DNA from: Clostridia bacterium
GTDB taxonomy: Bacteria > Bacillota > Clostridia > Oscillospirales > CAG-272
Length of the DNA: 61,120 nucleotides
Assembly (NCBI GenBank): GCA_017501545.1
Contig: JAFVWS010000032.1
Span: 1-61,120 of the forward strand
Direction: 5' to 3'
This document shows, piece by piece, positions 3,031-40,905 of this stretch (position 1 is its first letter; each line of letters opens with the position of its first letter). A model generated the notes under the pieces. It made no database searches and was not told the origin of the DNA. It saw nothing but the letters and a program-made list of their open reading frames with translations. A program made the position numbers and the translations under genes.

Positions 3031-3063
3031 AAAAAGCAAAACGCGCGTGCGTTTTGCTTTTTT
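3031..3063 (-). terminator. Terminator of the TIR-LRR gene
   Basis: AAGCAAAACGC-acgc-GCGTTTTGCTT followed by TTTTTCTC on the minus strand, immediately after the stop at 3069. Confidence 0.85.
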
Positions 3064-3068
3064 ATTAA

Positions 3069-6000
3069 TTATTCGCCTGTGTAGCCCCAAACGACTGGGC
3101 GGTTTTCAGGATTCCAATTAGAATCCCAGCCACTTGGCATACTTTCTGCTTCACAGTATATTGTTACATATGAGCATGATTCAAACGCAGAGTTAGCAAT
3201 GGTTGAAACTTTAGCAGGAATGACTATTTTCGTAAGAGCTTTGCACCACATAAAAGCACTTATTCCTATACTTTCTATTTTATCTCCTAATGTTACGTTT
3301 TCTAACATTTCACAAAAAGCAAATGTACCTGGTTCCAAACTTGTTATGCCGTTGCCTATTGTTACGCTTGTTAAATTAAAGCAATTAGAAAATGCACCCG
3401 CCCCCAAGTTGGTTACACTATCTGGAATCACAATGCTTTCCAAGTTTTCACAGTTTGCAAAAGCGGATTCTCCAATATATGTTACCGTATTAGCAATAGA
3501 TATGCTTGAAAATGATGAATATTGAAATGCACCATCTTCTATTCTTGTTCCTGCATTTATTCTAACTGTTCCAATAGATATACGATTAGCGATCTGAGTA
3601 GCTATACTTGCTGGTGCCGTTAAACTTTCGATGCTACTATCATAAAATACCATATAGACGTCTTGAGTTTCGATCGTACTTGGTATTACTACTGTTTTTA
3701 AACTTGTACATTTAGAAAAAGCAGAGAAACCTATGCTCCTTAGGCCTTCTTTCAAAACAACATTAGTTAAAGCGTAACACCATTCAAAGGCTGAATTTTC
3801 AATGTTGACTAATGTATCAGGGAACTCAACAGTTTGCAAATTTTCGCAATTTGCAAAGGCATAGCTTTCAATGGTTGTAATTCCTTCGTCTAACACCACG
3901 GAGATTAAATTTTTACAACCTCTAAATGCCTCAGATGGTATACTAGTGCCACCATTGATTACAACTGTTTTCAGTGATGTTTTCGATACATATTCAATTG
4001 CCATAGTTGGCATAGTTACATTTTGAATATTTTGGCAATCACAAAACGCATTTACTCCTATTCGTACAGAGCCATTCAATATTTCGATGCTGGAAAGTGA
4101 CGAGCAATAAGCAAATGCATAATCAGCAATAGATACTACGCTCTCTGGTATTTGAACATTCGCTACATCCGCACAGCCCGCAAAAGCACTTTCGCATAAA
4201 TGTGTCACGCCATCTGGTATATTGATTTCCGCTAAATCAATACATCCACCAAATGCGCCTGCACATATTATTTTTGTGTTTTCGTTTATTTCACAAGAGG
4301 TAATCTCTGGTCCAGTGGAACGAACTAAGAAATGATATGGATTATCTCCAACTCCTAAATATGTTGCGTTATCGTAAGTGTTAAATTCAAGTAATTCACA
4401 CCCTAAAAAAGCATCGTATGATATATTTGTCACACTTTCAGAAAGAACTACTTCTTGAAGAGTAGTGCAGTACGAAAATGCAGACTCGGGTATGCTTGCA
4501 CCACTATTGATTACAACTGATTTTAGAGCACCTTTTTGAATATATTCAATTGCAGTTGTTGGTATATTTGCATATTCAATGCGACTGCAATCGAAAAACG
4601 CATACTCGTCTATATTTATCTTATCATTTGGTATTTCTATACTTGTCAAGTTTGTACTACAGTCATCAAAAGCATCACCATATATTAACATAGTATTTTC
4701 GTGCACTTTGCAAGATGTAACTCTAGCATGTTTCGCTTTAATCAAATACAAGTATGGATTTTCTTCATTTCCCAAATATAACGCATTATCATATTCGTTA
4801 TACTCAAGAGAGGAACAAGCATAAAACGCGCCAGAACCTATGCTTGTTATGCTATTTGGAATTTCTAAGCTTAACAATGAAAAACACTTTGAAAATGCTC
4901 CAGTGCCTATTCTTATCAAGTTATTAGGCATTACTGCGCTTTCCATGTTTACACAACCTTCAAACGCATAGGCACCTATATTGCTTACATTATTAGATAT
5001 CACTATGCTATTTAAACATTCGCATCCTTGAAACGCATAATCCGCTAATGTGGTACCACCATTTATTACAACAGTTTCCAAAGAGTCTTGTGGGATATGT
5101 GCAATAGCGCTTGCAGGCATAGTTGCATTTTTAATACTGATGCAACCATCAAATGCATTTTGGCCTATGCTCACAACACTACTTGGTATCACAATATTTG
5201 TTATTCCTGTACAGTCTTCAAATGCATATTCACCTATGCTTGCATTCTCTGGTATTTCAATGCTTTCCAGCGCTACGCAATTATTAAATGCTGAATTACC
5301 TATTGTCTGTACAGTACTTGGTATTTCAATATTTGTCAAGTGTGTGCAGTTAGCAAACGCTTCATTTCCAATGCTTTCAACATTATTTGGTATTTTTATA
5401 GTCGCCAAGCTTACGCAACCACTAAATGCAGATTCGCCAATTGATGTTACGCTATTTGGTATTTCGACAGTTGTTAAGCTAATGCAGTCCTTAAATGCTT
5501 CGTCCTCTATGCTTGTGCCAGCATTAATTACAACAGTTTTTAAGGTTTCTTTGGGGACATAAGAGATTGCGGTTGATGGCACTATTGCGCTTTCAACTTT
5601 ACTGCAACCATCAAATGCATTTTGACCTATTACAGTTGTTTCGCCCGGAATTACAATATTTGTCACATTTATACAACCTCTGAAGGCATAGTCACCTACA
5701 GATGTGACACTATCGGGTATCACGATAATTGTTAAGCTTGCGCAATCCTTGAAAGCAAAGTTGCCAATTTCGGTTACGCTACTTGGGATTTCAAGACTGG
5801 TCAGGTTAGTACAGCCTTCAAATGCTTCGTCGGCTATGCTTGTAACACCATTTGGGATTGTAACACTTTCAAGGCTTGTACAGCCACTGAAGGCTGAGGC
5901 ATCTATTGTTTTGACGCTACTTGGTATTACTACCTTTGTAATAGTAGTGTTATTGGCATATTCGCCATTTTTTATTGAAACGGTTCCCTCTGGGATTATT

Positions 6001-27549: not shown

Positions 27550-28929
27550 ATGCCAGGCTACGCAAATTTTAAAACACTTTATAAAGAAGAATACGATTGT
27601 CTTCGTGACGAGGGATACGACGTTGAAAGCTTTGTTCAACCAAGCCCAGATGCCGAGGGCTTTTTGCCATTTCCAAACGAATGTGACTCATACAGTGAGG
27701 GCGAGGACAAGGAATTTTGGAAGCGCGCTTATTACAATTTAATTAAGGTGAGGGGGTCGCAAATTCGCGCAGATTACCCTTACGACGAGCCGAATGATTA
27801 TGATGAAATTATGGCTAAAGCGCCAAAGGCTCCCACTTTAGAGCCACTTTCCGACGAGGAATATACAAGCAGGCTTAATGGTGCTTTTTATGGCAGGTGC
27901 GCGGCTGTTATTCTTGGAAAGCCACTTGAAATGGGAATGAACCGTCTTGAGATTAAGGAATATCTTGAAAGCGTTGGAGAGTATCCACTAAACGACTACG
28001 TGTCGGCTTATTCAAGGAAGCTTGATAAAAGGCTACGCGAGGACTGCATCTATTCAACTAAGGGCAACGTTAAGTTTGCGCAGTCCGATGACGACATTAA
28101 CTACACACTTCTTGCATTACTTCTCGCCGAGAAGCATCCTAACGGATTTTCAAGTGCAGATGTGGGCTGGAACTGGCTTGACAATATTTCATATCACTGG
28201 TGCTGGTGTGCCTCAAGACAGGCTTATTTTAATATGGTTTCACTTGACGACACTAAGGACATTGATGCGCAAATTAAGGAAATTCCATATAAGCTAAACC
28301 CATGGCGCGAGTGCATTGACGGACAGATTCGCACTGACTTTTGGGGATACATTCACCCGGCTGATATTAAAGCTGCTGCTAAAGACGCGCATCGTGACTG
28401 TGCATTCAGTCTAACCAAAAACGGAATTTATGGTGGAATGTTCGTTGCCGGCGCTATTGCAGGTGCTATGTCTAAAAATCCAAGCGTTGATTTGATTATT
28501 AAGTCGGGACTTAGTGCAATTCCCCAAAACTGCCGTCTTAGCGAGGCAGTTAAGCTTGTTTGTGGCTGGTGGAATGAATACAAGGACTGGGTAAAGGTTG
28601 CCGACAAGGTTTACGAAAAATATGGTCACTTGCCATTTGCAGCCACGCTAAATAATATGGCGATGGTTACTCTTGGCATTGTAGCTGGTGAGCTTGACTA
28701 CACAAAAAGCATTACAATTGCGACAATGGCAGGCATTGATACTGACTGTAACTCAGGCACAGTTGGCTCAATTGTTGGTGCTGCACTTGGCATTGATAAT
28801 ATTCCTGCGCGTTGGTATGAGCCACTTAATGACACAATCAAAAGCACAGTTGCCTCAGTTGGCGAGTGCAGAATTTCCGATATTGTAAATCGCATCTATC
28901 ACCAAAAAAAGATTGGCTACCACTGCTAA
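27550..28929 (+). CDS. ADP-ribosylglycohydrolase-family protein
   Basis: The 459-residue protein has an unusual N-terminal extension of about 110 residues. The ARH fold follows: GAFYGRCAAVILGKPLE, the metal-binding SDDDINYT near 179, GGMFVAGAIAGAM, and the second metal site GIDTDCNSGTVGSIVGA near 394. The family removes ADP-ribose from proteins or other acceptors, or cleaves related glycosidic bonds. The SDDDIN and DTDCN positions keep the Mg2+-binding acidic residues, so it should be active. GGAG lies before the ATG. It is monocistronic. A link to the ADP-ribosyltransferases at 40 and 47 kb is only conjecture. Confidence 0.85.
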   Translation: MPGYANFKTLYKEEYDCLRDEGYDVESFVQPSPDAEGFLPFPNECDSYSEGEDKEFWKRAYYNLIKVRGSQIRADYPYDEPNDYDEIMAKAPKAPTLEPLSDEEYTSRLNGAFYGRCAAVILGKPLEMGMNRLEIKEYLESVGEYPLNDYVSAYSRKLDKRLREDCIYSTKGNVKFAQSDDDINYTLLALLLAEKHPNGFSSADVGWNWLDNISYHWCWCASRQAYFNMVSLDDTKDIDAQIKEIPYKLNPWRECIDGQIRTDFWGYIHPADIKAAAKDAHRDCAFSLTKNGIYGGMFVAGAIAGAMSKNPSVDLIIKSGLSAIPQNCRLSEAVKLVCGWWNEYKDWVKVADKVYEKYGHLPFAATLNNMAMVTLGIVAGELDYTKSITIATMAGIDTDCNSGTVGSIVGAALGIDNIPARWYEPLNDTIKSTVASVGECRISDIVNRIYHQKKIGYHC

Positions 28930-29606: not shown

Positions 29607-30815
29607 TTACTCTGCTGCTTTGAAATTATAAATCGGCTTTATTCTGCAGACTATCTCTGCGGTTGGCTCAATATTTTTAACGATTTCATCCATGCTTTTG
29701 TATGCCATTGGAGACTCATCAAGAGTATCAGGAACTACACAAGTTGAATAAATGCCTGCCATTTCTTTCTCGTACTCTGCCATCGTGAGCTACTCAAATG
29801 CTTTAGTACGGGACATCAAACGTCCTGCGCCGTGAGGAGCAGAAAAGTTCCAATCCTCGTTGCCCTTGCCTATACAGATAAGAGAGCCGTCCCTCATGTT
29901 GATAGGAATTAAAAGCTTTTCTCCTTGTTTAGCCGACACAGAGCCTTTGCGCAAAATCATCTCTTTTACATCGATGTAGTTATGTATTGTTTGGAATGTC
30001 TCAATAGCCGTCCAACCACATCTTTCAAGGATGATTTCAGCCATTTTTGCTCGATTTCTCTCAGCAAATTTTTGACATATATCTACATCATGAATGTAGT
30101 CATCCATAAAAGAGCCGTATAAGAAACAAAGGTCGCGAGGCAATGTTGGCTCTTTTGCCTTAAAAGTCTTTTCTAATGCTTTGATTGTGGCTTGAATCTC
30201 TGTTCTTCTGCCTTGCTCCTTATATGTGCGAATTATTTCATCACGCTCTTTAAAGTATTCCTCCTTACCTACATTCAAATCAACTGCTAACTGCTGATAA
30301 ATCTCAGCCACCTGGGTGCCAAGATTACGCGAGCCGGAATGTATAACGAGGTACTTATCTCCATTCTCATCAACATCCACCTCAACAAAGTGATTGCCAC
30401 CTCCAAGAGTACCTAAGCTTCTCTCAAGACGCTTTGTATCCTTTAAATGTCTATAACAACGAAGCGCTGTTAAATCAAATCTCTCGTTCCTGCCATCCCA
30501 TACATTTCTGCCACAAGGAATATAGTGAGCTGCCTCATCCATCTTCTCAAAATCAATATCAATGTTGCCAAGATATACAGTGTACATTCCACATCCAATA
30601 TCAACGCCTACCATTGATGGCACTATTTTATCTGTTATCGTCATAGTTGTACCAATTGTACAACCCTTGCCTGCATGAACGTCAGGCATAATTCTAATTT
30701 TTGAGGCAAAAAATGCCTCTGTATCACATACAGCTTTTATCTGCTCCGCTGCCATATCCTCAAGCTGAGAGGTAAAGCACTTAGCAGTATTAAACTGTCC
30801 TACTATCTCTATCAT
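29607..30815 (-). pseudogene. rtcB: RNA 3'-phosphate ligase RtcB with in-frame TAG
   Basis: Residues 1-341 form an RtcB with IMPDVHAGKG, VGVDIGCGM (metal Asp/Cys near 73-78), LGGGNHFVEVD, HSGSRNLG and SAPHGAGRLMSRTKAFE, whose His near 328 is the guanylylation site. A TAG at 29790-29792 follows. In the same frame 60 further codons (LTMAEYEKEMAGIYSTCV..., PMAYKSMDEIV, RIKPIYNFKA) complete a normal roughly 400-residue RtcB ending at TAA 29607. The TAG replaces what is usually an acidic residue. Either the gene is a recent nonsense mutant, or the amber is read through. RtcB joins RNA 2',3'-cyclic-phosphate and 5'-OH ends. It is the last gene after Ro60 and the 145-residue gene. Confidence 0.88.
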
Positions 30816-31324: not shown

Positions 31325-32812
31325 TTATGCAACTATTTTTGCATATCTTTCGTTCTCGATTACCTCAAGCATAAATGCATAAGGATTCATATTGCCGCTC
31401 TCAACCATTGAAAATAGGCGTGGTGTGCAACCTGATACGAGAACTACTCCCTGCTCGTTTTTAGTTACTGGCTGTTGTTTATTGCGACTCGCAACGTTCC
31501 AGAAAACGATTTCAGGTAGTTTATATCCGTTTGCTTCAAATTTTGCTTTTGCATTATTAAAGTTTGACACCTTTGCATTTTCAACACAACAATCAAATTC
31601 CATATCGGAAATAATGATTAGCTTTGCAGGAAGTTCGCTTGTAGGAACATTATTTTCCACTGCGCTCTTCAAAATAAGGTCAAACACTGCTTCGATATTA
31701 GTATTTGCCACCTCATTAAATGACGCAACATAGCGAAGTCTATCAACAAAGGTTTCTCCTTTGATTTCTATAAGCTGAACGTTTCTTGAAAACTCTATAA
31801 AATGATTTTTATAGATTCCAGTATTATTCTCAGCAAAATATAAGCCAAGAGATAACGCAACGGAAGCTGGAAGTGGCTTTGCATCCCAGTACATAGAGCC
31901 TGATGTATCAATTACAGCAATTACGTTCTCTTTTGTTTCAAACTTTGGTAACGATGCCCATGTTGCATTCAAAGAGTCCTTCTCTTGCTCTGTAATTTTA
32001 CGCATAAATGTACTGTCTGATGAACCGTGATAAGAAAGATATGGCTCGACAATCTCATAGGGGGCGAGTGTGTCTGCGTGGAGCTTTTCTTCTCCGGTAG
32101 ATACCTTTTTTAGAAAATCTCCATATCTTTTCGAGTCGTTTCGCATAAATGCCTGACGGTATTTATACATTGCCTTAGAGGGCTGTTTTGAATAATCGAA
32201 GGTATAATCCTTTAAACGAAGGTTATTTTCAATAATTCTAATTTGTGCACGAAGGGCAACAAGTGCCTTTCGATAACTTGCATCACTAAGTCCAAAGTGC
32301 TTTGCAATCTTTTTTGCGTTGCGCACGGTTTGAGCATTTGATGCGTTTACAGATGGCAACCACTTAGCAAGTAGAGATACTTCTCCACCATTTTCAAGTG
32401 ATAATCTATCCTTTTCAAATTGTTCCTTTAGAACGCTTAGCATTTCCTTTTCGCACTGCGTTCCCATCAGGCAAAGAAGGTCGTCATAGCGTCCATATTC
32501 GGCAATGTATGTAAGATTTTTGCGTACTGACTGTGGCTCGTTTTTAGCAAGCCAATTAAGAATAACCTTGAAAACTCTGCGTTCACCAAGGCCGCCTCTT
32601 ATATCTCGTGCAAAAAAGAGGAGCTTCATAGCTATATCTCTATTTTCTGTATATGCACGAATAAAGCGCGCTTCTATCTCTTGATCGCTTTCACGGCGCA
32701 ATGCACCGATTGTTGCGAACAGGTCAAGACAATCTGATTCAGTTGTAATGTGTGTTACTGCTCCGTTTTCGGTAACAGTCTTGTTTGCTTCCTGTTTTAG
32801 ATAATTTAACAT
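31325..32812 (-). CDS. Ro60/TROVE-domain RNA-binding protein
   Basis: The 495-residue protein has a TROVE HEAT-repeat ring (about residues 1-290; EARFIRAYTENRDIAMKLLFFARDIRGGLGER, then FSKQPSKAMYKYRQAF-like) and a C-terminal von Willebrand A domain. The vWA has the MIDAS motif DTSGS near 299 and IIISDMEFD near 410. Ro60 proteins bind misfolded RNA ends in the central hole and Y RNAs on the outside, and bacterial ones (Rsr) partner PNPase and RtcB. ATG 32812 follows AAGGAG. The GTG three codons upstream is too close to that site. It lies directly downstream of the Y-like/tRNA-like array, on the same strand. Confidence 0.93.
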   Translation of the reverse strand: MLNYLKQEANKTVTENGAVTHITTESDCLDLFATIGALRRESDQEIEARFIRAYTENRDIAMKLLFFARDIRGGLGERRVFKVILNWLAKNEPQSVRKNLTYIAEYGRYDDLLCLMGTQCEKEMLSVLKEQFEKDRLSLENGGEVSLLAKWLPSVNASNAQTVRNAKKIAKHFGLSDASYRKALVALRAQIRIIENNLRLKDYTFDYSKQPSKAMYKYRQAFMRNDSKRYGDFLKKVSTGEEKLHADTLAPYEIVEPYLSYHGSSDSTFMRKITEQEKDSLNATWASLPKFETKENVIAVIDTSGSMYWDAKPLPASVALSLGLYFAENNTGIYKNHFIEFSRNVQLIEIKGETFVDRLRYVASFNEVANTNIEAVFDLILKSAVENNVPTSELPAKLIIISDMEFDCCVENAKVSNFNNAKAKFEANGYKLPEIVFWNVASRNKQQPVTKNEQGVVLVSGCTPRLFSMVESGNMNPYAFMLEVIENERYAKIVA

Positions 32813-32847
32813 GAAACTCACTCCTTTTCGTTTACAAATTTTAAGTT

Positions 32848-32944
32848 ACAAGGCACCATTTTGATACGAGATTCGAACTCGTGACGAGTGTTTTCCACAC
32901 CCTGCTTTAACCACTTAGCTAATCATCGTTGCTGTTCGTGCCTT
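32848..32944 (-). ncRNA. Y-like RNA unit 10 with tRNA-Ser(GGA)-like insert
   Basis: Terminal stem AAGGCAC (32938-32944) pairs with GTGCCTT (32850-32856), and CGAACAGCAA follows the 5' strand. The insert (32862-32925) has D arm AGCTAAGTGGTTAAAGC, stem GGGTG/CACTC around TGGAAAA (anticodon GGA by position) and a perfect T arm ACGAG-TTCGAAT-CTCGT. Its acceptor stem is short (TGAT/ATCA), so aminoacylation is unlikely. Confidence 0.8.
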
Positions 32945-32967
32945 CATTCATAGCGGTATCTCACTTT

Positions 32968-33134
32968 GCAAGGTGCCGCCACTATGATTTTATATTAACA
33001 GTGGGCAGGAGTCGAACCTGCATCACGGGAATTTTAAGTTTCCACTCAACCGCTGAGCTACCACTGCATATACGAATCGCATCAAAGCACGAATCTCCTA
33101 ACGAGGAAATCTTTTTTTGCTGTGCGCACCTTTT
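32968..33134 (-). ncRNA. Y-like RNA unit 9 with tRNA-Leu(UAA)-like insert
   Basis: AAGGTGC (33126-33132) pairs with GCACCTT (32970-32976), followed by GCACAGCAA. The insert at 32999-33066 has acceptor CAGTGG/CCACTG, D arm GCTC-AGCGGTT-GAGT, a weak stem GGAA/TTCC around ACTTAAAA (anticodon TAA) and T arm GCAGG-TTCGACT-CCTGC. Between the handle and the insert lies a hairpin GATTTCCTCG/CGTTAGGAGATTCG. Confidence 0.8.
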
Positions 33135-33137
33135 GGA

Positions 33138-33207
33138 ATGGTGGATGGGAGTTGAACCCATGCACAAGAATCATCAAATCCTCACTCTACCGCTGAGCTA
33201 CCACCAT
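33138..33207 (-). ncRNA. Free tRNA-like unit B, Ile(GAU)-like
   Basis: Seven-base-pair acceptor ATGGTGG/CCACCAT, D arm GCTCAGCGGTAGAGT, stem AGGAT/ATTCT around a 6-base loop TTGATG (anticodon GAT by position), T arm ATGGG-TTCAACT-CCCAT. The short anticodon loop and the non-standard discriminator region (TTCC) argue against a working tRNA. It lies between Y-like units 8 and 9 and could direct RNase P/Z processing. Confidence 0.8.
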
Positions 33208-33211
33208 ATAT

Positions 33212-33297
33212 ACAAGGCAAGTTGTCGCAACGCCATGCGACATCGTTTTATTATATGAGACGGGACTCGGAGGCTAAACTTGCTGTACTTGCCTTTA
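33212..33297 (-). ncRNA. Y-like RNA unit 8
   Basis: Nine-base-pair terminal stem AAGGCAAGT (33287-33295) with ACTTGCCTT (33214-33222), then ACAGCAA overlapping the stem end. The interior has a 7-bp hairpin TGTCGCA/TTGCGACA and a CATATAA loop. A tRNA-like fold is not convincing here. Confidence 0.75.
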
Positions 33298-33302
33298 AAT
33301 CG

Positions 33303-33366
33303 TGGAGGACGACAGGATTTGAACCCGTCCAAAGGGTTAACCTTGCTCTTCCAAGAGATGCCCTCC
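33303..33366 (-). ncRNA. Free tRNA-like unit A, Asn(GUU)-like
   Basis: Acceptor GGAGGGC/GTCCTCC (one G-U), a shrunken D arm CTC-ttggaa-GAG, stem AAGG/CCTT around a 5-base TTAAC loop that aligns with GTTAACC of tRNA-Asn, T arm ACGGG-TTCAAAT-CCTGT. At about 63 bases it is too short for a normal tRNA. It sits between Y-like units 7 and 8. Confidence 0.75.
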
Positions 33367-33371
33367 GTATA

Positions 33372-33457
33372 ACAAGGCGCTTTTACATTGATAAGCTTTG
33401 GTAATCATCGCCCCGCAGCTATTCAGACTTCTGTTTTTATCGCTGTTTGCGCCTTTA
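33372..33457 (-). ncRNA. Y-like RNA unit 7
   Basis: Terminal stem AAGGCGC (33449-33455) with GCGCCTT (33374-33380), followed by AAACAGCGA. The interior contains CTGAATA, which could be a Phe(GAA)-type loop with a weak AGT/GCT stem. The remaining fold is unclear. Confidence 0.72.
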
Positions 33458-33571
33458 ACAAGATGCCATTTCTCATATACGGAGAATTGCACTCCGCCAC
33501 CTCTTGTCCCTAAAACAAGCGTTCATTACATTGAACTAATATAGAAATTAGAATCGCTGTTGACATCTTTA
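33458..33571 (-). ncRNA. Y-like RNA unit 6 with tRNA-Leu(UAG)-like insert
   Basis: AAGATGTC (33562-33569) pairs with GGCATCTT (33460-33467, one mismatch/wobble), then AACAGCGA. The insert (33468-33548) is a good cloverleaf: acceptor ATTTCT/AGAAAT, D arm GTTC-AATGTAAT-GAAC, anticodon stem CTTGT/ACAAG with 7-base loop TTTAGGG (anticodon TAG) at 33503-33519, T arm CGGAG-TGCAATT-CTCCG. Confidence 0.82.
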
Positions 33572-33575
33572 TTTT

Positions 33576-33683
33576 TCAAGATGCATATTCATCATACGAA
33601 GCCTTTCACTCCGTTCTCTGCTGCTTACAAGGACAGCTGCTACTATGTAGCAAATGATGTCTTTTTTGCTGGATGCATCTTTC
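33576..33683 (-). ncRNA. Y-like RNA unit 5 with tRNA-Thr(UGU)-like insert
   Basis: Nine-base-pair stem AAGATGCAT (33673-33681) with ATGCATCTT (33578-33586), then CCAGCAA. The insert has acceptor CATCAT/ATGATG, D arm GCTAC-ata-GTAGC, stem GCTGT/GCAGC around CCTTGTAA (anticodon TGT; 33620-33637) and T arm CGGAG-TGAAAGG-CTTCG. Confidence 0.8.
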
Positions 33684-33769
33684 TAATTACAACTCAACAA
33701 AATCATTATGCAAGGCAATGCTTAAGTACAGTACGAAAGCGTTATCAACATAATAAAATATTGAGAAAA
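33684..33769 (-). other. Spacer between units 5 and 4, possibly a decayed tRNA-like fold
   Basis: CTCAATATTTTATTATG and CATAATGATTTTGTTGAG partly pair around a roughly 45-base interior with GTACTGTAC. It is acceptor-like in size but has no clear T arm. Confidence 0.35.
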
Positions 33770-33849
33770 ACAAGATGTGTAAGGCTCAGGCCCTTAGAGG
33801 TCGGAATTGCCTGACAGAAAAAACTTTTCCTTTGCTGCCCACATCTTTT
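33770..33849 (-). ncRNA. Y-like RNA unit 4
   Basis: AAGATGTG (33840-33847) pairs with CACATCTT (33772-33779), followed by GGCAGCAA. The interior folds as TCAGGC/GCCTGA with an inner CC/GG and loop gacctctaa. That loop contains CUA, but its stem is too weak to call an anticodon. Confidence 0.75.
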
Positions 33850-33917
33850 TATTCTTATCAGCAAGTTAATTGTCATCTGTATGAGTGGATGATAATTATT
33901 AACTGTAAAAACCAAAA

Positions 33918-34006
33918 ACAAGGCACATGTCCCTGCTTAGCAGGTATGGTTCAATTTTTTCAAGAAATTATCCATGACATATAGGTTTTTGCTGCGTGTG
34001 CCTTTT
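33918..34006 (-). ncRNA. Y-like RNA unit 3 with Ser(UGA)-like anticodon arm
   Basis: AAGGCACA (33997-34004) pairs with TGTGCCTT (33920-33927), then CGCAGCAA. The interior has a perfect anticodon arm AATTT-CTTGAAA-AAATT (33953-33969; anticodon TGA) and a hairpin CCTGC-taa-GCAGG. No full acceptor stem is visible. Confidence 0.77.
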
Positions 34007-34069
34007 CGCCAGTGAATCCCTGTCTGAAATCGAATATTGGCCAGCGACAGTCTTTGTAGCGGTAAAATT

Positions 34070-34277
34070 ACAAGATACGTTAAATTGACCGTTTGCACAG
34101 TCGTCAACTGTGTTGATGTAAGGATTTGATCAAATCAGAATCAACTTATCAGAGGGTCACAATGCCCAAAGGGTTTGCCATTCTCTCATTACATCAAAAT
34201 CTCACATATCAACACGTGCCAAACATTAAAAAATATCAGCCTGTGTTGTCTTTTTTTGTTTGCTGTACGTATCTTTC
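34070..34277 (-). ncRNA. Y-like RNA unit 2 with His(GUG)-like insert
   Basis: Nine-base-pair stem AAGATACGT (34267-34275) with ACGTATCTT (34072-34080), followed by ACAGCAA. This longest unit encloses an 83-base tRNA-like fold (34114-34196) with acceptor TGATGTAA/TTACATCA, stem GGG/CCC around cattgtga (GTG by comparison with tRNA-His; 34154-34167) and a T-arm-like GATTT/AAATC hairpin. Confidence 0.75.
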
Positions 34278-34330
34278 TATCCCTTGCTTCCTTAATAGGC
34301 TCCAATTGCCGTTAGGGCAAGGTGATTTAT

Positions 34331-34415
34331 TCAAGGCACAATTCCACGGGGTATAAGCCCGGTAGCTTTTCTGGTTAAAAGTCAGATGCTTAGGCATTTG
34401 CTGTTTGTGCCTTTC
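34331..34415 (-). ncRNA. Y-like RNA unit 1 with Lys(UUU)-derived core
   Basis: AAGGCACA (34406-34413) pairs with TGTGCCTT (34333-34340), followed by ACAGCAA. The core contains CTGACTTTTAACCAG (34371-34385), nearly the anticodon arm of bacterial tRNA-Lys(UUU). A T-arm-like CGGG-cttatac-CCCG and a mini D hairpin ATGC-ctaa-GCAT flank it. It begins where the predicted promoter at 34424-34452 would start transcription. Confidence 0.82.
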
Positions 34416-34423
34416 GTGAGCTT

Positions 34424-34452
34424 AGTTTACCACTATTTTCCTGCGTTTTCAC
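34424..34452 (-). promoter_or_regulatory. Putative promoter of the RNA array
   Basis: GTGAAA (34447-34452), 17 bases, TAAACT (34424-34429) with an extended TGG. The expected start falls at about 34416, at the first base of Y-like unit 1. No comparable promoter was found ahead of units 2-10, so one long precursor is likely. Confidence 0.5.
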
Positions 34453-34490
34453 GGAAAAAAAGCTGCGAACTCTTAAAAAAGTTCGCAGTT
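34453..34490 (-). terminator. Terminator after the WYL pair
   Basis: CTGCGAAC-ttttttaaga-GTTCGCAG followed by CTTTTTTT on the minus strand. The stop codon of the WYL gene lies in the loop. Confidence 0.85.
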
Positions 34491-35384
34491 TTTCTGTTTT
34501 TTTAGCTTATTTATGACTAATTCCTTAAAATTTTCAGAACCAATCACCTCAACTAATGGTCCAAAGGAAAGAACTCTTATCACCATTTCAGGCTCATCAT
34601 CTGTTAAATAGTTAATTTTGAGTAGGTAATGCTTCTTGTCAAGCTTCTCTACTTGCTTTTCAAAATGTGCAAAATGAAGCATTACTCTCTCTAAAGCATT
34701 TCTTTCATCCAACACCTTTAGGATTATTGTATCTTGTCTTGCTTCTCTTTCCACATTATCCAAAGCTTTTTCTCCGGTGTAATGAGCACAGGAACATATT
34801 TTGGCAAGATTGACGGTGGATACAGAACGCCAGCCTGACGTTATCATACGGAACTTGTCATCCTTCTCCGAGTATTCGAGCCTCGATGGATAGCATCTTG
34901 CAAAAACAGTTTTCCCCTGTCTGTTAATCAACTCAAACTTAATTTGCGTTCTTTTCTTTATAGCTTCTAAAATAACCCTAAACCTTTGAATATAACCTTC
35001 GTCTTCAAATGGATCGCCATCACTATACTTGTCATAAATATAATAGTCATCAGGTGTAAAAAGAGGTTCTACATCATCAAGACCTTCAAATTTAACATCA
35101 AACAATTTGATACGCGGATCAAGAGATATAGCCTTTAGCCATTGCTTTTGCAATTTTGTCATAGGCATCGTTGGTTTGTGCTCAAGGTTGGTGATCATGT
35201 TCGGAGTAACAACCTGCCATTTTCCATTTTTTAACGATGGCATAATTGTTAATACACTCTCACTAAAAGCATATTTTGAAACAACCTTCTGTAATTCCTT
35301 TTCTGAATTCTCTCCATCAATAATTTTTGAAATAATGGCGGCAACCGTGTTATAGTAGGCAGAATAAAGCTCGCTAAATATCAT
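34473..35384 (-). CDS. WYL-domain regulator (second of pair)
   Basis: The 303-residue protein has the WYL core from about residue 140: RFRVILEAIKKRTQIKFELINRQGK, the strand with YPSRLEYSEKDDKFRMIT, and a C-terminal WCX-like part (IKINYLTDDEPEMVIRVLSFGPLVEVIG). WYL domains sense nucleic-acid or nucleotide ligands and control defence or repair genes. No clear N-terminal DNA-binding helix-turn-helix is evident, so it may pair with the upstream protein. Its ATG overlaps the upstream TGA (ATGA). It is transcribed toward the RNA array and separated from it by a terminator. Confidence 0.8.
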   Translation of the reverse strand: MIFSELYSAYYNTVAAIISKIIDGENSEKELQKVVSKYAFSESVLTIMPSLKNGKWQVVTPNMITNLEHKPTMPMTKLQKQWLKAISLDPRIKLFDVKFEGLDDVEPLFTPDDYYIYDKYSDGDPFEDEGYIQRFRVILEAIKKRTQIKFELINRQGKTVFARCYPSRLEYSEKDDKFRMITSGWRSVSTVNLAKICSCAHYTGEKALDNVEREARQDTIILKVLDERNALERVMLHFAHFEKQVEKLDKKHYLLKINYLTDDEPEMVIRVLSFGPLVEVIGSENFKELVINKLKKQKNCELF

Positions 35385-36640
35385 ATATCTTCCCCCCTAT
35401 CAACACCATACATTTTATACATTGCATCAAGGTCTTCTTTGAATTTTCTTTCGAGTTCTCTATTTGAGAATTTGATTTCTTTAATCCGACATATAAATGT
35501 TCTTATCCACGGCACCATTTCTCCAACATCATAAACATCTGCAGAAAATTTATAATTGTGCTCGTCTATTTTTTCAACTATTCCAACTCTTTTTTCTCTA
35601 TTAAGACGATTGATAATATAGTATTCGTCGTCAGCTATCCCAACCACAAACTCAACATGTTCTGTTTTTTCATCATTCCATTTGCTACGATTAGCACTAA
35701 CGCCCCACATTTTTGTTTGCATTCTATCAAGCTGAGAACGAAGCTCATCAAAACGAGGCGTTGTCTCTTCAAGTCTTACATTAGATAAATAGTCGATTCG
35801 ATAAGAGATAAAGCAATTAAATTCAGAATGATATGCAAATAAGTGCTGTCTACCGTTTTGCACACTGATAAATACGCGCAAAGGAATTATTCTATTCTTT
35901 CTTGGAACGTCTTTTCTACGGCTTAAATTATCTACTGTTATTATACGTTTCTCTCTCATCGCAGTGAAAAGTGAGGCTAAAACACCACTGTCAATTGCGC
36001 TGGTTATGTAATGATGCTTGAAGGTAAATACATTTGAATCTGTTTCAAGCTTATCAAGTATAAATGAACCAACAACACCACAAGGAGCGACCTCGGAAAA
36101 GTAATGTGAAACATCTGTAAGATTTGAAATATCAACCGTCTCTGCTCGATGATAATATGCCTTGCGTCCAATCTTCTCTATTTCAACAATGCCAATTTCA
36201 CAGTATTCTTTTAGTTTTTTACGTACAGTTGACTCATCAAACATCATAGGTGCACTAAATCCGGATAGATATTTTTCATCTATCAACTGCATAATTTCAG
36301 ATATGGTATATTTTACAGAAGGAATATAAAGAATATCAAGAAGAATAAAATGAAGAGTTATATCGCCATCAGTAAAGCTTTTTGCTTTCCATGCGTTGTA
36401 AAAAGGATTATGATAAATTCTTCGGCTATCAATGGAAATAAACACATTTTTGCCTTCCAGAGTTCTTATAAAGCTCATGTGATTCCCAAGCCAGCTTTCT
36501 ATTCTTCTACGCTCGTCATCATAGGAACGAGCACTTTTGGTGCTATATTCGTCACGACTCTTAAAGCCGTAAACATAAAATTCTCGCATATATGCACGAA
36601 TTTTTTCAAAGTTTTTGATAAGCTCACTGTATGATGACAT
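35381..36640 (-). CDS. WYL-domain regulator with winged helix (first of pair)
   Basis: The 419-residue protein has an N-terminal RRxESWLG helix and a predicted winged-helix at about 95-170 (LHFILLDILYIPSVKYTISEIMQLI, STVRKKLKEYCEIGIVEI). The WYL domain follows (about 215-300: LFTAMREKRIITVDNLSRR, RIIPLRVFISVQNGRQHLFAYHSEFNCFISYRID) and then a WCX-like tail. ATG 36640 follows GGAGG. It is the first gene behind a good promoter and is four-base coupled to the second WYL gene. In this position it probably controls the array and the Ro60-RtcB genes, which is inference. Confidence 0.82.
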   Translation of the reverse strand: MSSYSELIKNFEKIRAYMREFYVYGFKSRDEYSTKSARSYDDERRRIESWLGNHMSFIRTLEGKNVFISIDSRRIYHNPFYNAWKAKSFTDGDITLHFILLDILYIPSVKYTISEIMQLIDEKYLSGFSAPMMFDESTVRKKLKEYCEIGIVEIEKIGRKAYYHRAETVDISNLTDVSHYFSEVAPCGVVGSFILDKLETDSNVFTFKHHYITSAIDSGVLASLFTAMREKRIITVDNLSRRKDVPRKNRIIPLRVFISVQNGRQHLFAYHSEFNCFISYRIDYLSNVRLEETTPRFDELRSQLDRMQTKMWGVSANRSKWNDEKTEHVEFVVGIADDEYYIINRLNREKRVGIVEKIDEHNYKFSADVYDVGEMVPWIRTFICRIKEIKFSNRELERKFKEDLDAMYKMYGVDRGEDI

Positions 36641-36674
36641 AATTTTCCTCCATTCGTGTGGCAACTACATATTG

Positions 36675-36743: not shown

Positions 36744-36777
36744 GAGAAAAAGGGCTAAAATTAGCCCTTTTCTGAAT
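36744..36777 (-). terminator. Terminator of the helicase gene
   Basis: AAAAGGGCTAA-tt-TTAGCCCTTTTTCTC on the minus strand. The stop codon is part of the stem. Confidence 0.8.
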
Positions 36778-39544
36778 TATTTGCATTATAGACCAATTTG
36801 CCAATAAGCTGCTTGTCCTTAAGTGTCATCCAATATGATTTGTCGCAAACAATTACAAGACGTTTTTTTGCACGAGATATGGCAGTATTAATTATTTTTA
36901 AGCCCTTAGATTGCTTATGTGTCGAATCGGTAAAAAACTTCCTCTCAGTATCAACAACACTTAATATTACAGTGTCCCATTCTCTGCCCTGTGCTGCATG
37001 AATTGTACACACCTCTTGCTTGTAATACAGCTCTTTTTGTATTAAGTCTCTTTGCTTTTTGTATGGAGTTAATATAATCAAGCTTTCTTCTTTGCTGCCC
37101 TTTAAATATTCTTTTATCGCAGTTGCTTCAGAATGGTTTTCTCGAAGCTCAATTTCACTTGCCATTCTCGGTGCATCTATAACAATCACTTCCGTATCGC
37201 TTTCAACACCATGAAATCCAGTTTTATAAACAAACGTGTCTAAAACCTTCGCCAAATTTTCGCCAAAGCGATATGTATTCGTAAGCACTGCTCTTTCGAC
37301 AACCTCAAACCTTGGATCATCTCCATCATAGTACATATTTCTTAATTCGGAAACATCTATGTCTTCAATAAATATATCAGGAAAATACAATGAAGATTGT
37401 GACCACAAAAAGCTTAGGTCTGTTGAACGATCTACAATGGTTTTATTCTCCATTTCGCATATTGGAGGAAGCTGCATATGATCGCCGAAAAGACCAACTG
37501 GCACACCTAATGAAAACACAGGAGCAACCTTTATCATGGAGCAATATGCAGCTTCATCAAGAAAAGCAAATTTTAATTTGTCCTTAATTAAATCTACAAA
37601 CTCAGCATAATGCAGAATCAAATAATCAATAGTGCACGCAAATATTCGCTTCTTTTTATAGGTGGAGTCTACTATTCCCTTTAAAGAATTATACTGTTCT
37701 CCTTTTTCTTCTATTCTCCTCTTTAGTGAATTATATGTATCTTCACTAACATCTAGAGCCAGCAATCTAAGCACTAGCTTTTCGCCCATATCATTGCCCA
37801 AATCAAAGTCTTCCTTTACTTTGGAAGTAAGTAAGGCTACTATCTCTTTGCTAATTCTTTCTTTGCTTTCTTGCAACTTGCCGTTTTCTATATTGGCTTT
37901 CTTCAAATCATTATCGTTTTCTGCAAGTGCTTGTCTACATTCTCCAACTGTTGCTTCTGCTTCTTTTAATTGCTTTTTAAGGTTATCTATATCGCAATCA
38001 CTGTTTTGATATTGCTCAACGCACTCAATTAAATAATCATAGAATCCTTCCACTTTCAAGTGGGCAAATCCATTATTATTCATAAGTTCTTTTACTTTAT
38101 TGATTTCAACATTTAAATGATTATTTATATCTTCTAGTTGTGCGCTGATTCGTTGGTATTCATTCTTTTTCGCTTCGCTTTGGACATAAAATTCTGCAAG
38201 CTTTTTCTCTTCAACCTTTACCAATGGCTCTAAGGTGTTAATTTCAGCTATCGCTTCCTCACGTTGTTTGCCACCAAAGAAAGACAACACCTTATAACCC
38301 AAAGAATTAGTTTTCTTTCTTAATGATGCGATCTTTCGTTGGATGTTCCATAGATTTTCTCTATGCTCTTTAATTTCATTTTCTAATATAGTTAATTTAG
38401 AATTGCATATATCTTTTTCTTGATTTAATATTTTTATCCTTTCTTTAAGCTCATTTATCGTTTCTTGCAATTTGGTTAATGGCTCATATATATTTACCAT
38501 TCTTTGATAAATATCATACTCATTTACGCTTTTGGTTAACTTGGCTATACTTGCTTCAAGATCTGAAATTTTGTCATTCAAGATTTTTTCCTCTTTCACA
38601 CAAAACGCAAGCTTTTCTTCAATTTCAAAAATTTCCTTCTCATTATTTGATTTTGCATCGTATAAAGATAAGATTTTATCTTTTATATTTGCAAGACGGC
38701 GAGAAAATTCATATTCTAAAAATCTTTTCTCTATTATTTTGATTTCACTGTCTAATTCTGCAAGTTCCTTCATAATGGAACCCTTTTCGCACAAATCAGG
38801 ATATTTCAAAGAAAACTCTCTTGAAGCCTTACCCATTCTCAAAACCATGTTAATGTCTACATCGGCATTTTCAAGCGTTTTAATTATTCCACTCAAGGAT
38901 TGTTCAACTGCATTATTTGTAGGTCCTACAACCAACACGGCGTTTTCATAATCAACAATAGAAGCGATGCATGATGACAACACAACCTGTGTTTTTCCTG
39001 TTCCTGGGGCTCCCCATACATACGAAACCGCCGAACTTAAAACCGTTCTTATCGCTTTTATTTGCTCATCAGAAATACTTTTTGGAGTTGCTAATCCAAT
39101 ATTGCCGCAAGAATTCTTTATTGGAAAACATATTCTTTTATGATTATATCTATACCAATCTCTTGTAGCTTTTATTAAAAACGAGAGGTCGGATACAAGC
39201 TGCATTTCATTAGCTTTCAATTGCCTAAACACGTCATAAAAATCATCTTCGACGCTTACTATAATGCTTGGCTCACTTTCGTCATACTCTAGTATGCGAA
39301 TTAGTTTATCACTAACAGTTTCTTCGTCTGCTCTTTCGATTTTTATCAATGGAGAATTAAAGGTGAAATACGTAGAATCTATTTGATATAGCTTTTTTGA
39401 TATTCTTAAGTGAAATAAACGATTTTCTATTTCTTTGATCGCGATAATATTTATGGTTTCTCTGCTTTTCCCATTTTTCCTAACGTATTCAAAATACGCA
39501 TCTGCACTTTTGTAAGCGGTCCTTGAAAAATCAATTAAGTCCAT
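36761..39544 (-). CDS. Upf1-like SF1 helicase with internal coiled coil
   Basis: The 927-residue protein has an N-terminal domain of about 150 residues and Walker A GAPGTGKT near 178. A long coiled-coil insertion follows (about 225-560, rich in Glu/Lys/Leu). Then come DEAAYCSM (motif II) near 660, FGDHMQLPPI (motif III), LTNTYRF (motif IV/Q-like) and TIHAAQGREWDTVILSV with NTAISRAKKRLVIV (motifs V-VI). This is the AAA_11/AAA_12 arrangement of Upf1/SMUBP-type DNA or RNA helicases. GGAGGG precedes the ATG. It is separated from the WYL pair by terminator and promoter. A defence role is plausible but not shown. Confidence 0.85.
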   Translation of the reverse strand: MDLIDFSRTAYKSADAYFEYVRKNGKSRETINIIAIKEIENRLFHLRISKKLYQIDSTYFTFNSPLIKIERADEETVSDKLIRILEYDESEPSIIVSVEDDFYDVFRQLKANEMQLVSDLSFLIKATRDWYRYNHKRICFPIKNSCGNIGLATPKSISDEQIKAIRTVLSSAVSYVWGAPGTGKTQVVLSSCIASIVDYENAVLVVGPTNNAVEQSLSGIIKTLENADVDINMVLRMGKASREFSLKYPDLCEKGSIMKELAELDSEIKIIEKRFLEYEFSRRLANIKDKILSLYDAKSNNEKEIFEIEEKLAFCVKEEKILNDKISDLEASIAKLTKSVNEYDIYQRMVNIYEPLTKLQETINELKERIKILNQEKDICNSKLTILENEIKEHRENLWNIQRKIASLRKKTNSLGYKVLSFFGGKQREEAIAEINTLEPLVKVEEKKLAEFYVQSEAKKNEYQRISAQLEDINNHLNVEINKVKELMNNNGFAHLKVEGFYDYLIECVEQYQNSDCDIDNLKKQLKEAEATVGECRQALAENDNDLKKANIENGKLQESKERISKEIVALLTSKVKEDFDLGNDMGEKLVLRLLALDVSEDTYNSLKRRIEEKGEQYNSLKGIVDSTYKKKRIFACTIDYLILHYAEFVDLIKDKLKFAFLDEAAYCSMIKVAPVFSLGVPVGLFGDHMQLPPICEMENKTIVDRSTDLSFLWSQSSLYFPDIFIEDIDVSELRNMYYDGDDPRFEVVERAVLTNTYRFGENLAKVLDTFVYKTGFHGVESDTEVIVIDAPRMASEIELRENHSEATAIKEYLKGSKEESLIILTPYKKQRDLIQKELYYKQEVCTIHAAQGREWDTVILSVVDTERKFFTDSTHKQSKGLKIINTAISRAKKRLVIVCDKSYWMTLKDKQLIGKLVYNANNSEKG

Positions 39545-39620: not shown

Positions 39621-40244
39621 TTATTGGTCCTCTACCTCAAGCAAATCTTCTATGGTGCATCCTAACACTCTAGATAGCTTTAAGAGCTTATTTGCTGGAG
39701 CTGTGTTAATGTTTAATTGTCTTTGCTCATATAGCTGAATAGATCTTAATGAGACTTGACTGTATCTTGACAATTCAATTTGAGATAATCCTGCATTTTT
39801 TCTGTATCTTGCCAAGTTAGTTTCCTTTTGGAACACGATTCTATTTGCAACCTCAACGAACTTTTGCAAATCCGCCTCGTGCAATGGATAATACATTCTC
39901 ATTATTTGAGATGGTGGCAATTTTCTTCCTATTTGCTCAAAGCTTAATCCTGTATACCATTGATAATATGCCAGAACAAAGCCACACCAATATTGTGGAC
40001 TTCTTCCCATACCTATTGGACGAATTAGTGGCATTCTTGTTCCAACAATCTCATAAAACAATGCTTGAGATGGCATATTAATATAACGAGGATTTCCCCT
40101 TCCAAATTGGTGTGCTATGCCACTCATTACAAAGTCTCGAAATAACATGTCTGCTTGTCTTTCATCTTGCACATAGCTAAACACCTCTGCAAGGGTGCAC
40201 ATCGCATCATTTACGTATAATTCGCTGTATGCGTGGATCATCAT
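39621..40244 (-). CDS. XRE-type antitoxin of the DUF3990 pair
   Basis: The 207-residue protein has an N-terminal helical domain (ADMLFRDFVMSGIAHQFGRGNPRY, then MGRSPQYWCGFVLAYYQWYTG) and a C-terminal helix-turn-helix at about 140-205 (LARYRKNAGLSQIELSRYSQVSLRSIQLYEQ). This DUF3791/XRE-like architecture usually accompanies DUF3990 toxins. The start ATGATG follows AGAGGTG and overlaps the toxin gene by 38 bases. It is expected to neutralise the toxin and repress the shared promoter. Confidence 0.8.
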   Translation of the reverse strand: MMIHAYSELYVNDAMCTLAEVFSYVQDERQADMLFRDFVMSGIAHQFGRGNPRYINMPSQALFYEIVGTRMPLIRPIGMGRSPQYWCGFVLAYYQWYTGLSFEQIGRKLPPSQIMRMYYPLHEADLQKFVEVANRIVFQKETNLARYRKNAGLSQIELSRYSQVSLRSIQLYEQRQLNINTAPANKLLKLSRVLGCTIEDLLEVEDQ

Positions 40245-40905
40245 TCTTCACCTCTTGTCTGATAATATCCATTATAAATAAATCATCTTGTGTAACACTT
40301 GAATGTCTAGTTGTTTCTAAATATTCTTTCCTAGCTTGCAAATCACGAGCATGTCGCCTTGTATAATAGGTTTCATTATCTGCGACTGTGCTTTCGATAT
40401 ATTTTAGTTGTTCAAAGGCATTTTCTGAATGTAATACAATTTGAACGCCAAGCTTGCCAAGCTCCATTGCTTTTGAGAGCTGTGCTACCGTAATTGTATT
40501 TCTCAAGAAATCGCGAGCGAATGAAAAGTACGAATCATCTGCTCTATATCCAATTATCACATCAACCTTTGTTAAGTCTACTGAGAAATTTTTAAGTATA
40601 TATTCTCTTGCTAGATCATCGTTAGGAGAAACTCCTTGCGGAATTCTAAACTGTAGAAGTAAAGCCATCCAATTAAGTATGTTATACTCAGGCTTTGTTA
40701 AGTCCAATATATTAAGGCCAGTCATATCAAGCTCATATTTATTTGCATATCCATCATTATTATCTGGGCATGCCCATTCGTTTGCCAAGTCTATGCTTTC
40801 TGTACAGTAAAATCCGTATCCATAATCGTTAGTTTCTTTTCCGCCCTTTAATGTCGGTTTTTCAATAATTTCCTTAGAACCGTGATAAAGTATCTTTGTA
40901 TTCAT
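40207..40905 (-). CDS. DUF3990 toxin (ADP-ribosyltransferase fold)
   Basis: The 232-residue protein opens with KILYHGSKEIIEKPTLKGG, then DYGYGFYCTESIDLANEWAC, the hallmark of DUF3990, a family placed among ADP-ribosyltransferase-like toxins. The later YTRRHARDLQARKEYLE part is helical. It is the promoter-proximal gene, with GGAGG ahead of ATG, and is followed by an overlapping XRE antitoxin. Target and chemistry are not deducible from the sequence. Confidence 0.8.
   Translation of the reverse strand: MNTKILYHGSKEIIEKPTLKGGKETNDYGYGFYCTESIDLANEWACPDNNDGYANKYELDMTGLNILDLTKPEYNILNWMALLLQFRIPQGVSPNDDLAREYILKNFSVDLTKVDVIIGYRADDSYFSFARDFLRNTITVAQLSKAMELGKLGVQIVLHSENAFEQLKYIESTVADNETYYTRRHARDLQARKEYLETTRHSSVTQDDLFIMDIIRQEVKNDDPRIQRIIRK

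Follow-up and report, generated by a model that had tools for sequence, protein, structure and literature searches.

A ten-unit array of Y-RNA-like RNAs with tRNA-like inserts beside DUF2828 and rtcB genes in a Clostridia bacterium

What might be the role of a dense array of small, stem-closed RNAs encoded beside a Ro60-like protein and an RNA ligase? The question is raised by a 61,120 nt stretch (referred to here as the window) of contig JAFVWS010000032.1 from a Clostridia bacterium (assembly GCA_017501545.1), in which the minus strand carries ten units (34413 to 32850), flanked on one side by two WYL-type regulators (427 and 303 amino acids) and on the other by a gene run encoding a 498-amino acid DUF2828 protein, a 164-amino acid protein, and RtcB. 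The explanation we favor, to which we give a probability of about one half, is that these are ten Y-RNA-like RNAs that would be bound by the DUF2828 protein through a terminal stem and an ACAGCAA strand, and that their inserts, several of them with tRNA-like arms, would lure away nucleases that cut tRNAs, as decoys in an operon for RNA repair. It rests on sequence, namely the terminal stem and its covariation, the linkage to DUF2828, RtcB and WYL genes, a promoter element at fixed spacing, and an excess of anticodon-type and T loops.

The ten units and their partner protein

Every unit starts with AAG[AG][CT], carries CAGC[AG]A from base 11, and ends in the complement of its start followed by CTTG; all ten have 7–9 contiguous terminal pairs, confirming the initial annotation of ten minus-strand units closed by stems of 7–9 bp. 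Made strict over 16 bases, the 5′ pattern (AAGRYRCNNRCAGCRA) matches six of the ten units and no other site in this genome, and the reversed pattern has no match. The folding z-scores of the units lie between -1.46 and -3.27.

That most of the units enclose tRNA-like arms, as had also been proposed, holds for some of them only. The only Rfam family to pass its cut-off in the array is tRNA, in unit 9, in unit 10, and in one element between units 8 and 9; matches to STnc240, RAGATH-19 and other families at a terminator hairpin are below cut-off and were taken as chance. Unit 9 (32970–33132, z -1.78) encloses a tRNA-Leu(UAA)-like cloverleaf at 32997–33067 (46.4 bits), and unit 10 (32850–32944, z -2.32), just upstream of the DUF2828 gene, is tRNA-like at 32862–32925. 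Unit 6 (33460–33569, z -2.00) is tRNA-like by ARAGORN and has a Leu-UAG-type loop, TTTAGGG; unit 5 (33578–33681, z -3.11) is cloverleaf-like, and its family has D-, anticodon- and T-like hairpins; and unit 3 (33920–34004, z -2.33) has an exact Ser-UGA loop, CTTGAAA, on 5 bp. Unit 1 (34333–34413, z -3.27) qualifies through its relatives, which have two anticodon-like hairpins, the first variable and the second initiator-Met-like; clear anticodon hairpins are present in two relatives, and the Lys-type loop of the window copy, read by eye, is closed by an A-C mismatch. The proposal does not extend to the 204 nt unit 2 (34072–34275, z -2.77), whose hairpins fit a loose anticodon pattern only, nor to units 4 (33772–33847, z -1.46), 7 (33374–33455, z -1.48) and 8 (33214–33295, z -3.10, with homologues at loci L032 and L042), in which inspection reveals no clear tRNA arm. 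The units are closed by the conserved stem and are not full cloverleaves with a free acceptor end; the sole free CCA end belongs to a free-standing tRNA-Ile(GAU)-like element on the same strand between units 8 and 9 (33134–33207, found by ARAGORN; Rfam tRNA, 56.7 bits at 33137–33207). A weaker tRNA-like element on this strand between units 7 and 8 (33304–33366) matches Rfam tRNA-Sec at 20.7 bits, under the cut-off.

The array was initially placed beside Ro60 and RtcB genes. The RtcB assignment stands, and the 498-amino acid protein (31325–32821, minus strand) has the predicted fold of Ro60, a helical-repeat ring with a vWA domain, but it is a DUF2828/DUF7788 protein (PF11443, E 1e-35; PF25043, E 3e-41; phrog_850, that is PHROG 850, E 3e-134 over residues 1–494) with no Pfam TROVE match up to an E value of 5, noting that HMMER filters drop most matches above 0.1. 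PF05731 (TROVE) has no match in this genome, and a profile built from 33 relatives of the protein finds no PDB sequence at an E value of 0.1. The likeness of the DUF2828 protein to Ro60 is thus one of predicted fold. In the open-access literature, outside of which the key Y RNA papers lie, neither bacterial DUF2828 nor its RNAs turned up as the subject of a paper, the DUF2828 matches concerning plants by title.

Related loci and the terminal stem

DUF2828 homologues are present in 682 of 50,697 phage records, where most of those listed are annotated as 'hypothetical', 'RNA-binding' or 'Ro-like' protein, and also in many Clostridia, a cultured carrier being Anaerotignum lactatifermentans DSM 14214 (locus L083). 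We compared the best 80 of 535 confirmed genome loci (some with flanks shortened by contig ends) and the best 80 of 471 viral loci, using a detector that requires the 5′ motif and at least seven terminal pairs. It finds 270 sense units at 79 of the 80 genome loci, as against five in reversed sequence and nine antisense, and 78 units at 47 of the 80 viral loci, as against two reversed and one antisense. The number of units per genome locus is 0 to 9, and because 79 loci have between one and nine, the ten units of the window represent the top of a range; the view of this array as a singular case is therefore not borne out.

The neighborhood recurs as well. Within the fetched flanks RtcB homologues are present at 63 of the 80 genome loci, downstream in 57 of the 63, and homologues of the 303- and 427-amino acid regulators at 66 and 65 loci respectively. 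These counts, together with the covariation described below, support the notion that Y-RNA-like RNAs form a family which, here and elsewhere, is linked to a Ro60-like protein and RtcB. An association with either TROVE or rtcB genes had been anticipated, and only its RtcB part holds: six of 299 genomes of the phylum (a small sample) carry TROVE, and at these six loci there is no array, the strict detector giving three matches that all lack the CAGCAA core and the loose detector scattered single ACAGCAA matches in some of them (L234, L235, L237 and L238, for example) at about chance level. A search from the RNA side of 146 genomes of the same family gives seven clusters (at least two motif matches within 2 kb), every one of them at a DUF2828 locus. 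The DUF2828 protein is encoded in ten of these 146 genomes, that of the window included; in seven of them the locus has a motif cluster, in G055 a single motif match, and in G114 three units by the detector, and G139, which has two distant DUF2828 copies, has no convincing unit within 1.5 kb of them.

The units lie predominantly upstream of the DUF2828 gene (246 of 266, with 19 overlapping its stop-to-stop frame and one downstream), and in many of the loci with a unit of the family of unit 10 this unit immediately precedes it, as would be expected if they formed a leader through which the DUF2828 protein controls its operon, by repression or by activation. We regard such cis-regulation as improbable, as up to ten units exceed what autoregulation needs, phage units can precede or follow the gene and are found among tRNA genes, and in G114 (locus L263) the units precede RtcB instead.

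To examine the stem without circularity we used the 5′ motif as anchor and the first downstream CTTG as the other end, blind to pairing, at the 80 genome loci and in the window. Positions 4–8 all pair in 184 of 279 units, whereas swaps of 3′ strands within loci give a mean of 77 and a maximum of 98 in 1000 permutations; all four Watson-Crick pairs occur at position 8. The terminal stem is thus formed from the two ends of the RNA, and the covariation that had been noted in the window is borne out across its relatives. In the window alone these positions pair at 50–80%, compared with 36–59% for swaps, a weaker result because the first CTTG is not always the correct one. That the array consists of chance repeats or is an assembly artefact has nothing in its favor other than the draft state of the genome, and we consider it refuted by the presence of the motif at 79 of 80 other records and by own-strand pairing above every permutation.

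Many phage loci that lack the AAG start retain the other parts, with a different stem sequence followed by ACAGCAA, as in TGGGACGCTTACAGCAA ... AAGCGTCCTG. Loosely defined in this manner, CAGCAA cores have a stem of at least 8 bp in 242 of 510 cases (47%) at genome loci and 251 of 702 (36%) at viral loci, where six control hexamers give 15–20% and 16–26% respectively; the antisense counts are 53 and 43. A good part of the loose viral set is chance, and the phage comparisons below use a tighter set of 137 units with distinct inserts from 55 loci, some of them near relatives. In seven of nine phage records examined in detail the units lie beside the DUF2828 gene; phi-ST2 is ambiguous, and one faecal contig has no units. 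Some of the phage members may be listed by Chen et al. (2014), who reportedly found Y RNAs close to Ro60 in numerous bacteria and phages.

Several inserts form families that span species (counts include the units of the window): family 1, to which unit 10 belongs, has 41 units at 39 loci, family 2 (unit 6) 17 at 14, and family 3 (unit 5) eight at eight, while 161 of 276 units, again with the window counted, are singletons. The consensus fold of family 2, from 14 of its 17 units (some rows being a few bases short at the end), comprises the terminal stem and D-type, anticodon-type and T-type arms; 14 of its 23 pairs change on both sides and 93.7% of cells pair, which none of 500 shuffles reaches.

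What the inserts display

The new point to emerge is what the units appear to display, which is different anticodons on related inserts. Among 266 bacterial units, 78 have a [CT]TNNN[AG][ACT] loop on a 5-bp hairpin (shuffled mean 5.7, maximum 16) and 48 a TTC[AG]ANY T-arm loop (0.1 shuffled); with T-arm loops removed, 53 anticodon-type hairpins are left. For control hairpins the observed and shuffled numbers are 172 and 84 with any 7-nt loop, 12 and 5.9 with an A replacing U33, and 27 and 4.3 with a pyrimidine at position 37, a class that also admits T-arm loops. U33 is present in 73 of 168 (43%) non-redundant 5-bp hairpins compared with 23% in shuffled sequence, and in viral units in 19 of 35 compared with 28%. 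Exact anticodon loops, from a set comprising the loops of this genome's own tRNAs and 16 others, occur on at least four of five pairs in 32 of the 266 units (3.0 shuffled, 3.3 with letter-permuted loops) and on five pairs in 19 (0.4 and 0.9).

Families 1 and 2, in which the anticodon arms were located by a picker anchored to the alignment (an automatic mid-unit hairpin picker was dropped because it mixed T arms with anticodon arms), bear on whether the anticodon is what matters. The 16 gap-free rows of family 2 contain ten triplets, with U33 in 14 and a purine at position 37 in 16, and the mean pairwise identities are 0.37 (triplet), 0.69 (position 33), 0.75 (stem), 0.52 (T region) and 0.48 (D region). 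U36 is accompanied by A37 in eight of eight rows and G36 by G37 in eight of eight; we regard this as compatible with anticodon display and not as proof of it, since the rows are related and the genome's own tRNAs, which have A37 with U36 in 12 of 12, have G37 with G36 in only five of ten. In the family of unit 1 and a similar one, read by eye, a hairpin of Lys, Cys or Asn type comes first and is followed by one that is initiator-Met-like.

The display is clearer in phages than in bacteria. Of the 137 phage units, 30 have a tRNA anticodon loop that is exact and stands on five pairs (shuffled 0.28, maximum 2; permuted loops 0.48, maximum 3), and of the 31 hairpins involved 14 are Lys-UUU, the commonest, and five Asn-GUU; a looser pattern gives 41 hairpins with U33 and a purine at 37, as against 6.5. 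Homologous units can differ in the anticodon they carry, with Ser-GCU and Asn-GUU units sharing 95% identity outside the loop (L112_5719 and L111_3473), and Lys-UUU and Asn-GUU units 92% (L165_9039 or L158_10006, and L152_3567). Among pairs of phage units above 72% identity, 18 differ in the loop, several of them weakly supported, and 26 share it.

The main rival explanation is that the units are tethers or gates of the kind described for YrlA, in which the elbow of D and T arms recruits an effector such as PNPase or RtcB to the Ro60-like ring, or positions it there, or gives tRNA enzymes something to act on, and an anticodon arm without a role simply drifts. Family 1 conserves T-arm loops and D arms and varies in the length of the anticodon arm, and a passage in a review (PMC8394870) describes the tRNA-like domain of YrlA as resembling D, T and acceptor arms, with the basal stem on Rsr and binding to PNPase. 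However, the insert is short in many phage units (median 49 nt), and the exact anticodon hairpins of the phage units, together with the retention of U33 and purine 37 in family 2 while the triplet changes, indicate more than drift alone. A repertoire that switches anticodons fits bait better than a plain tether, although so many units lack a canonical loop that the tether stays in contention, and we consider it possible but doubtful.

Both genome and viral loci are rich in tRNA genes, raising the question of whether the inserts are extra tRNAs or decaying leftovers of mobile elements. Within 3 kb of the DUF2828 gene there are 83 tRNA genes upstream and 12 downstream at genome loci, and 120 upstream and 152 downstream at the viral loci, and the Ile-like element of the window has a CCA end. 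At least 45 of the 83 upstream genes come from just three loci, however; the units are closed by a Ro-type stem and have no free acceptor end; a share of the phage units has an anticodon hairpin without a cloverleaf; and stems and scaffolds covary, which argues against decay. Functional or former tRNA genes thus seem a poor explanation of the array.

At the three loci, L066, L069 and L070 (Mogibacterium and uncultured Clostridiales), the units and DUF2828 are preceded by a long series of tRNA genes with CCA ends. In Alf5, a phage of E. coli K-12, 18 annotated tRNA genes stand next to the DUF2828 gene. At L154 (4828–5522) only a few bases separate phage units from the tRNA genes on both sides of them, in the orders tRNA-Glu, unit, tRNA-Thr and tRNA-Trp, unit, tRNA-Pro, and look as if they are processed with them from one tRNA transcript. 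Two phage inserts (L188 5336 and L154 9319) can be read by eye in the order of anticodon arm, T arm, acceptor 3′ strand, short loop, acceptor 5′ strand and D arm, which would be that of a circularly permuted tRNA. ARAGORN on doubled inserts did not pick up either of them, and its junction-spanning calls (11 of 253 bacterial and two of 133 phage inserts) have an overhang of a few bases and show no permutation.

The operon, a proposed mechanism, and known systems

Behind the 303-amino acid regulator gene (34473–35384, minus strand; PADLOC WYL E 5e-7, with no Pfam match over cut-off), which follows that of the 427-amino acid WYL-domain regulator (35381–36664, minus strand; Pfam WYL and PADLOC WYL), lies a conserved element, TCGCAGCTTTTTTTCCGTG (34450–34468, minus strand), that overlaps a terminator-like hairpin and is a predicted site for the WYL pair; a predicted -10 box, TAAACT (34424–34429, minus strand), lies 20 nt after it. 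The element, TCGCANNT(6-8)CC[AG][TC]G, is found behind the 303-amino acid gene in 60 of 65 loci, in all but two no more than 90 nt from its stop, and in 57 of the 60 the first TANNNT begins exactly 20 nt after it, the first unit often starting about 36 nt after it. Copies of the element at the 80 loci number 74 in sense and none antisense, and its core occurs once in this genome and in 27 of the 146 family genomes, at DUF2828 loci in nine of these. We infer that the WYL pair acts at this promoter element. The same element also fronts gene runs with rtcB but without DUF2828, and on another contig of G088 it directly precedes (L262, 2996) a second, lone rtcB (3051–4277), which points to a WYL-controlled rtcB regulon.

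At four loci (L258, L260, L261 and L251) the TCGCANNT7CC element is followed by a leader RNA of another kind, which contains one or two T-arm-like hairpins and is possibly a further tRNA-like RNA of the same regulon. The first three have the WYL pair before the leader and rtcB after it, no DUF2828, and a gene after the leader whose start we take to be slipin-like; L251 is a short contig with one regulator.

The RtcB gene of the window (29790–30815, minus strand) is cut by an in-frame TAG (29790–29792), at which a relative (L010) has an arginine and behind which some 60 codons stay open (29607–29789); either a real truncation or a draft-genome error would account for this. No homologue of the 164-amino acid protein occurs at the 80 loci, nor does any of the remaining window genes tested recur there. 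Among nine neighboring proteins scanned there is neither an RtcR (sigma-54 type, CARF), in place of which stands the WYL pair, nor an RtcA. At viral loci no homologue of the WYL pair lies within the fetched flanks; in Listeria phage AG20 a 'tRNA splicing ligase' gene is 1.2 kb downstream.

Elsewhere on the minus strand of the window (39621–40905 and 36761–39544), a DUF3990 protein and a helix-turn-helix partner match the PADLOC candidate defence pair PDC-M42A/B, and the gene next to them encodes a helicase with partial likeness to MkoA; none of these has homologues at the 80 array loci. The DUF3990 protein is presumably ADP-ribosyltransferase-like, and its gene and one for an ADP-ribosylglycohydrolase (27550–28929, plus strand) lie on opposite sides of the array.

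With the decoy explanation in mind, we propose that tRNA damage leads the WYL pair to turn the operon on, that the units would be cut from one transcript and held by the DUF2828 ring, and that the terminal stem and ACAGCAA-type strand would dock each RNA on this Ro60-like structure. The insert would then present part of a tRNA, often the anticodon loop, to anticodon-cutting enzymes and draw them off, with RtcB resealing cut tRNAs and perhaps the decoys too; phage units, in which Lys-UUU leads among the exact loops, may counter tRNA-cutting defences of the host. More tentatively, such loci could constitute a heritable repertoire of anticodon bait, in which interchangeable RNAs on the ring switch anticodons, and units are added, to match the nucleases encountered, while RtcB reseals the cuts.

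Several observations weigh against this explanation. At least 188 of the 266 bacterial units lack a strict 5-bp anticodon-type hairpin, and the 78 that have one include some T-arm loops; units 4, 7 and 8 of the window lack a clear tRNA arm. In family 1 the best stem has a 7-nt anticodon-arm loop in only 20 of 41 units, with U33 in 15 of these and 3–6 nt or no loop in the others, which is variation as drift would give. The D and T regions of family 2 are only about 0.5 identical, so that its 'constant scaffold' is a relative term, and a pooled link between positions 36 and 37 is not significant (p 0.055) and is not claimed. The loosely defined phage units include chance matches, none of the 80 viral loci has RtcB within the fetched flanks, and the RtcB of the window has its in-frame stop. 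Lastly, no anticodon nuclease was identified among the genes scanned beside the array, and none was searched for elsewhere. The decoy idea of the initial annotation thus gains from the anticodon loops on display, in the triplets of family 2 and in the phage units, and loses from the many bacterial units without a canonical one; the guide role suggested alongside it gains no support from the analyses made here.

A conserved RNA partner would offer the DUF2828 family a function that can be tested. Should the inserts indeed be anticodon baits, they would give bacteria and phages a means, made of RNA, to counter toxins and defences that cut tRNAs, and this would be relevant to the co-occurrence of Ro60-like proteins and Y-like RNAs with RtcB and with clusters of phage tRNAs.

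Of known systems the closest is YrlA (RF02553) with Rsr, a TROVE Ro60, with which the locus shares the terminal stem, the tRNA-like insert (a tRNA-like domain being present in units 9 and 10 and in the consensus arms of family 2) and a partner gene of predicted Ro60 fold; the units look built to work like Y RNAs. YrlA has no match in the window at the gathering threshold, in the array at an E value of 5, or in the whole genome, and with no match to YrlA or TROVE sequence models neither the units nor the protein are filed there. The units differ from YrlA in having a DUF2828 and not a TROVE partner, in their long arrays, and in the different anticodons within one insert family. In some bacteria, according to passages of PMC8394870 and PMC7790460, genes for YrlA-type Y RNA and Ro60 sit in an operon with rtcB. 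The Salmonella rsr-yrlBA-rtcBA operon likewise brings together a Ro60-like protein, Y RNAs and RtcB, and passages of PMC7790460 report its regulation by tRNA damage; in the locus described here the WYL pair and the TCGCANNT7CC element replace RtcR, and there are up to ten units. Hughes et al. suggest, in a passage of the same paper (PMC7790460), that the tRNA-like domain of YrlA may competitively inhibit an anticodon nuclease. Phage tRNAs that resist host anticodon nucleases share the proposed conflict and the clustering of genes (excerpts of PMC10264068 and PMC11455837), and the same excerpts give tRNA-Lys(UUU) as the target of PrrC (PMC10264068) and tRNA-Lys as that of PARIS (PMC11455837). 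Those resistance tRNAs are true tRNAs, often with altered loops, whereas the units are not tRNAs and in 30 of the 137 phage cases carry unaltered loops, as bait would.

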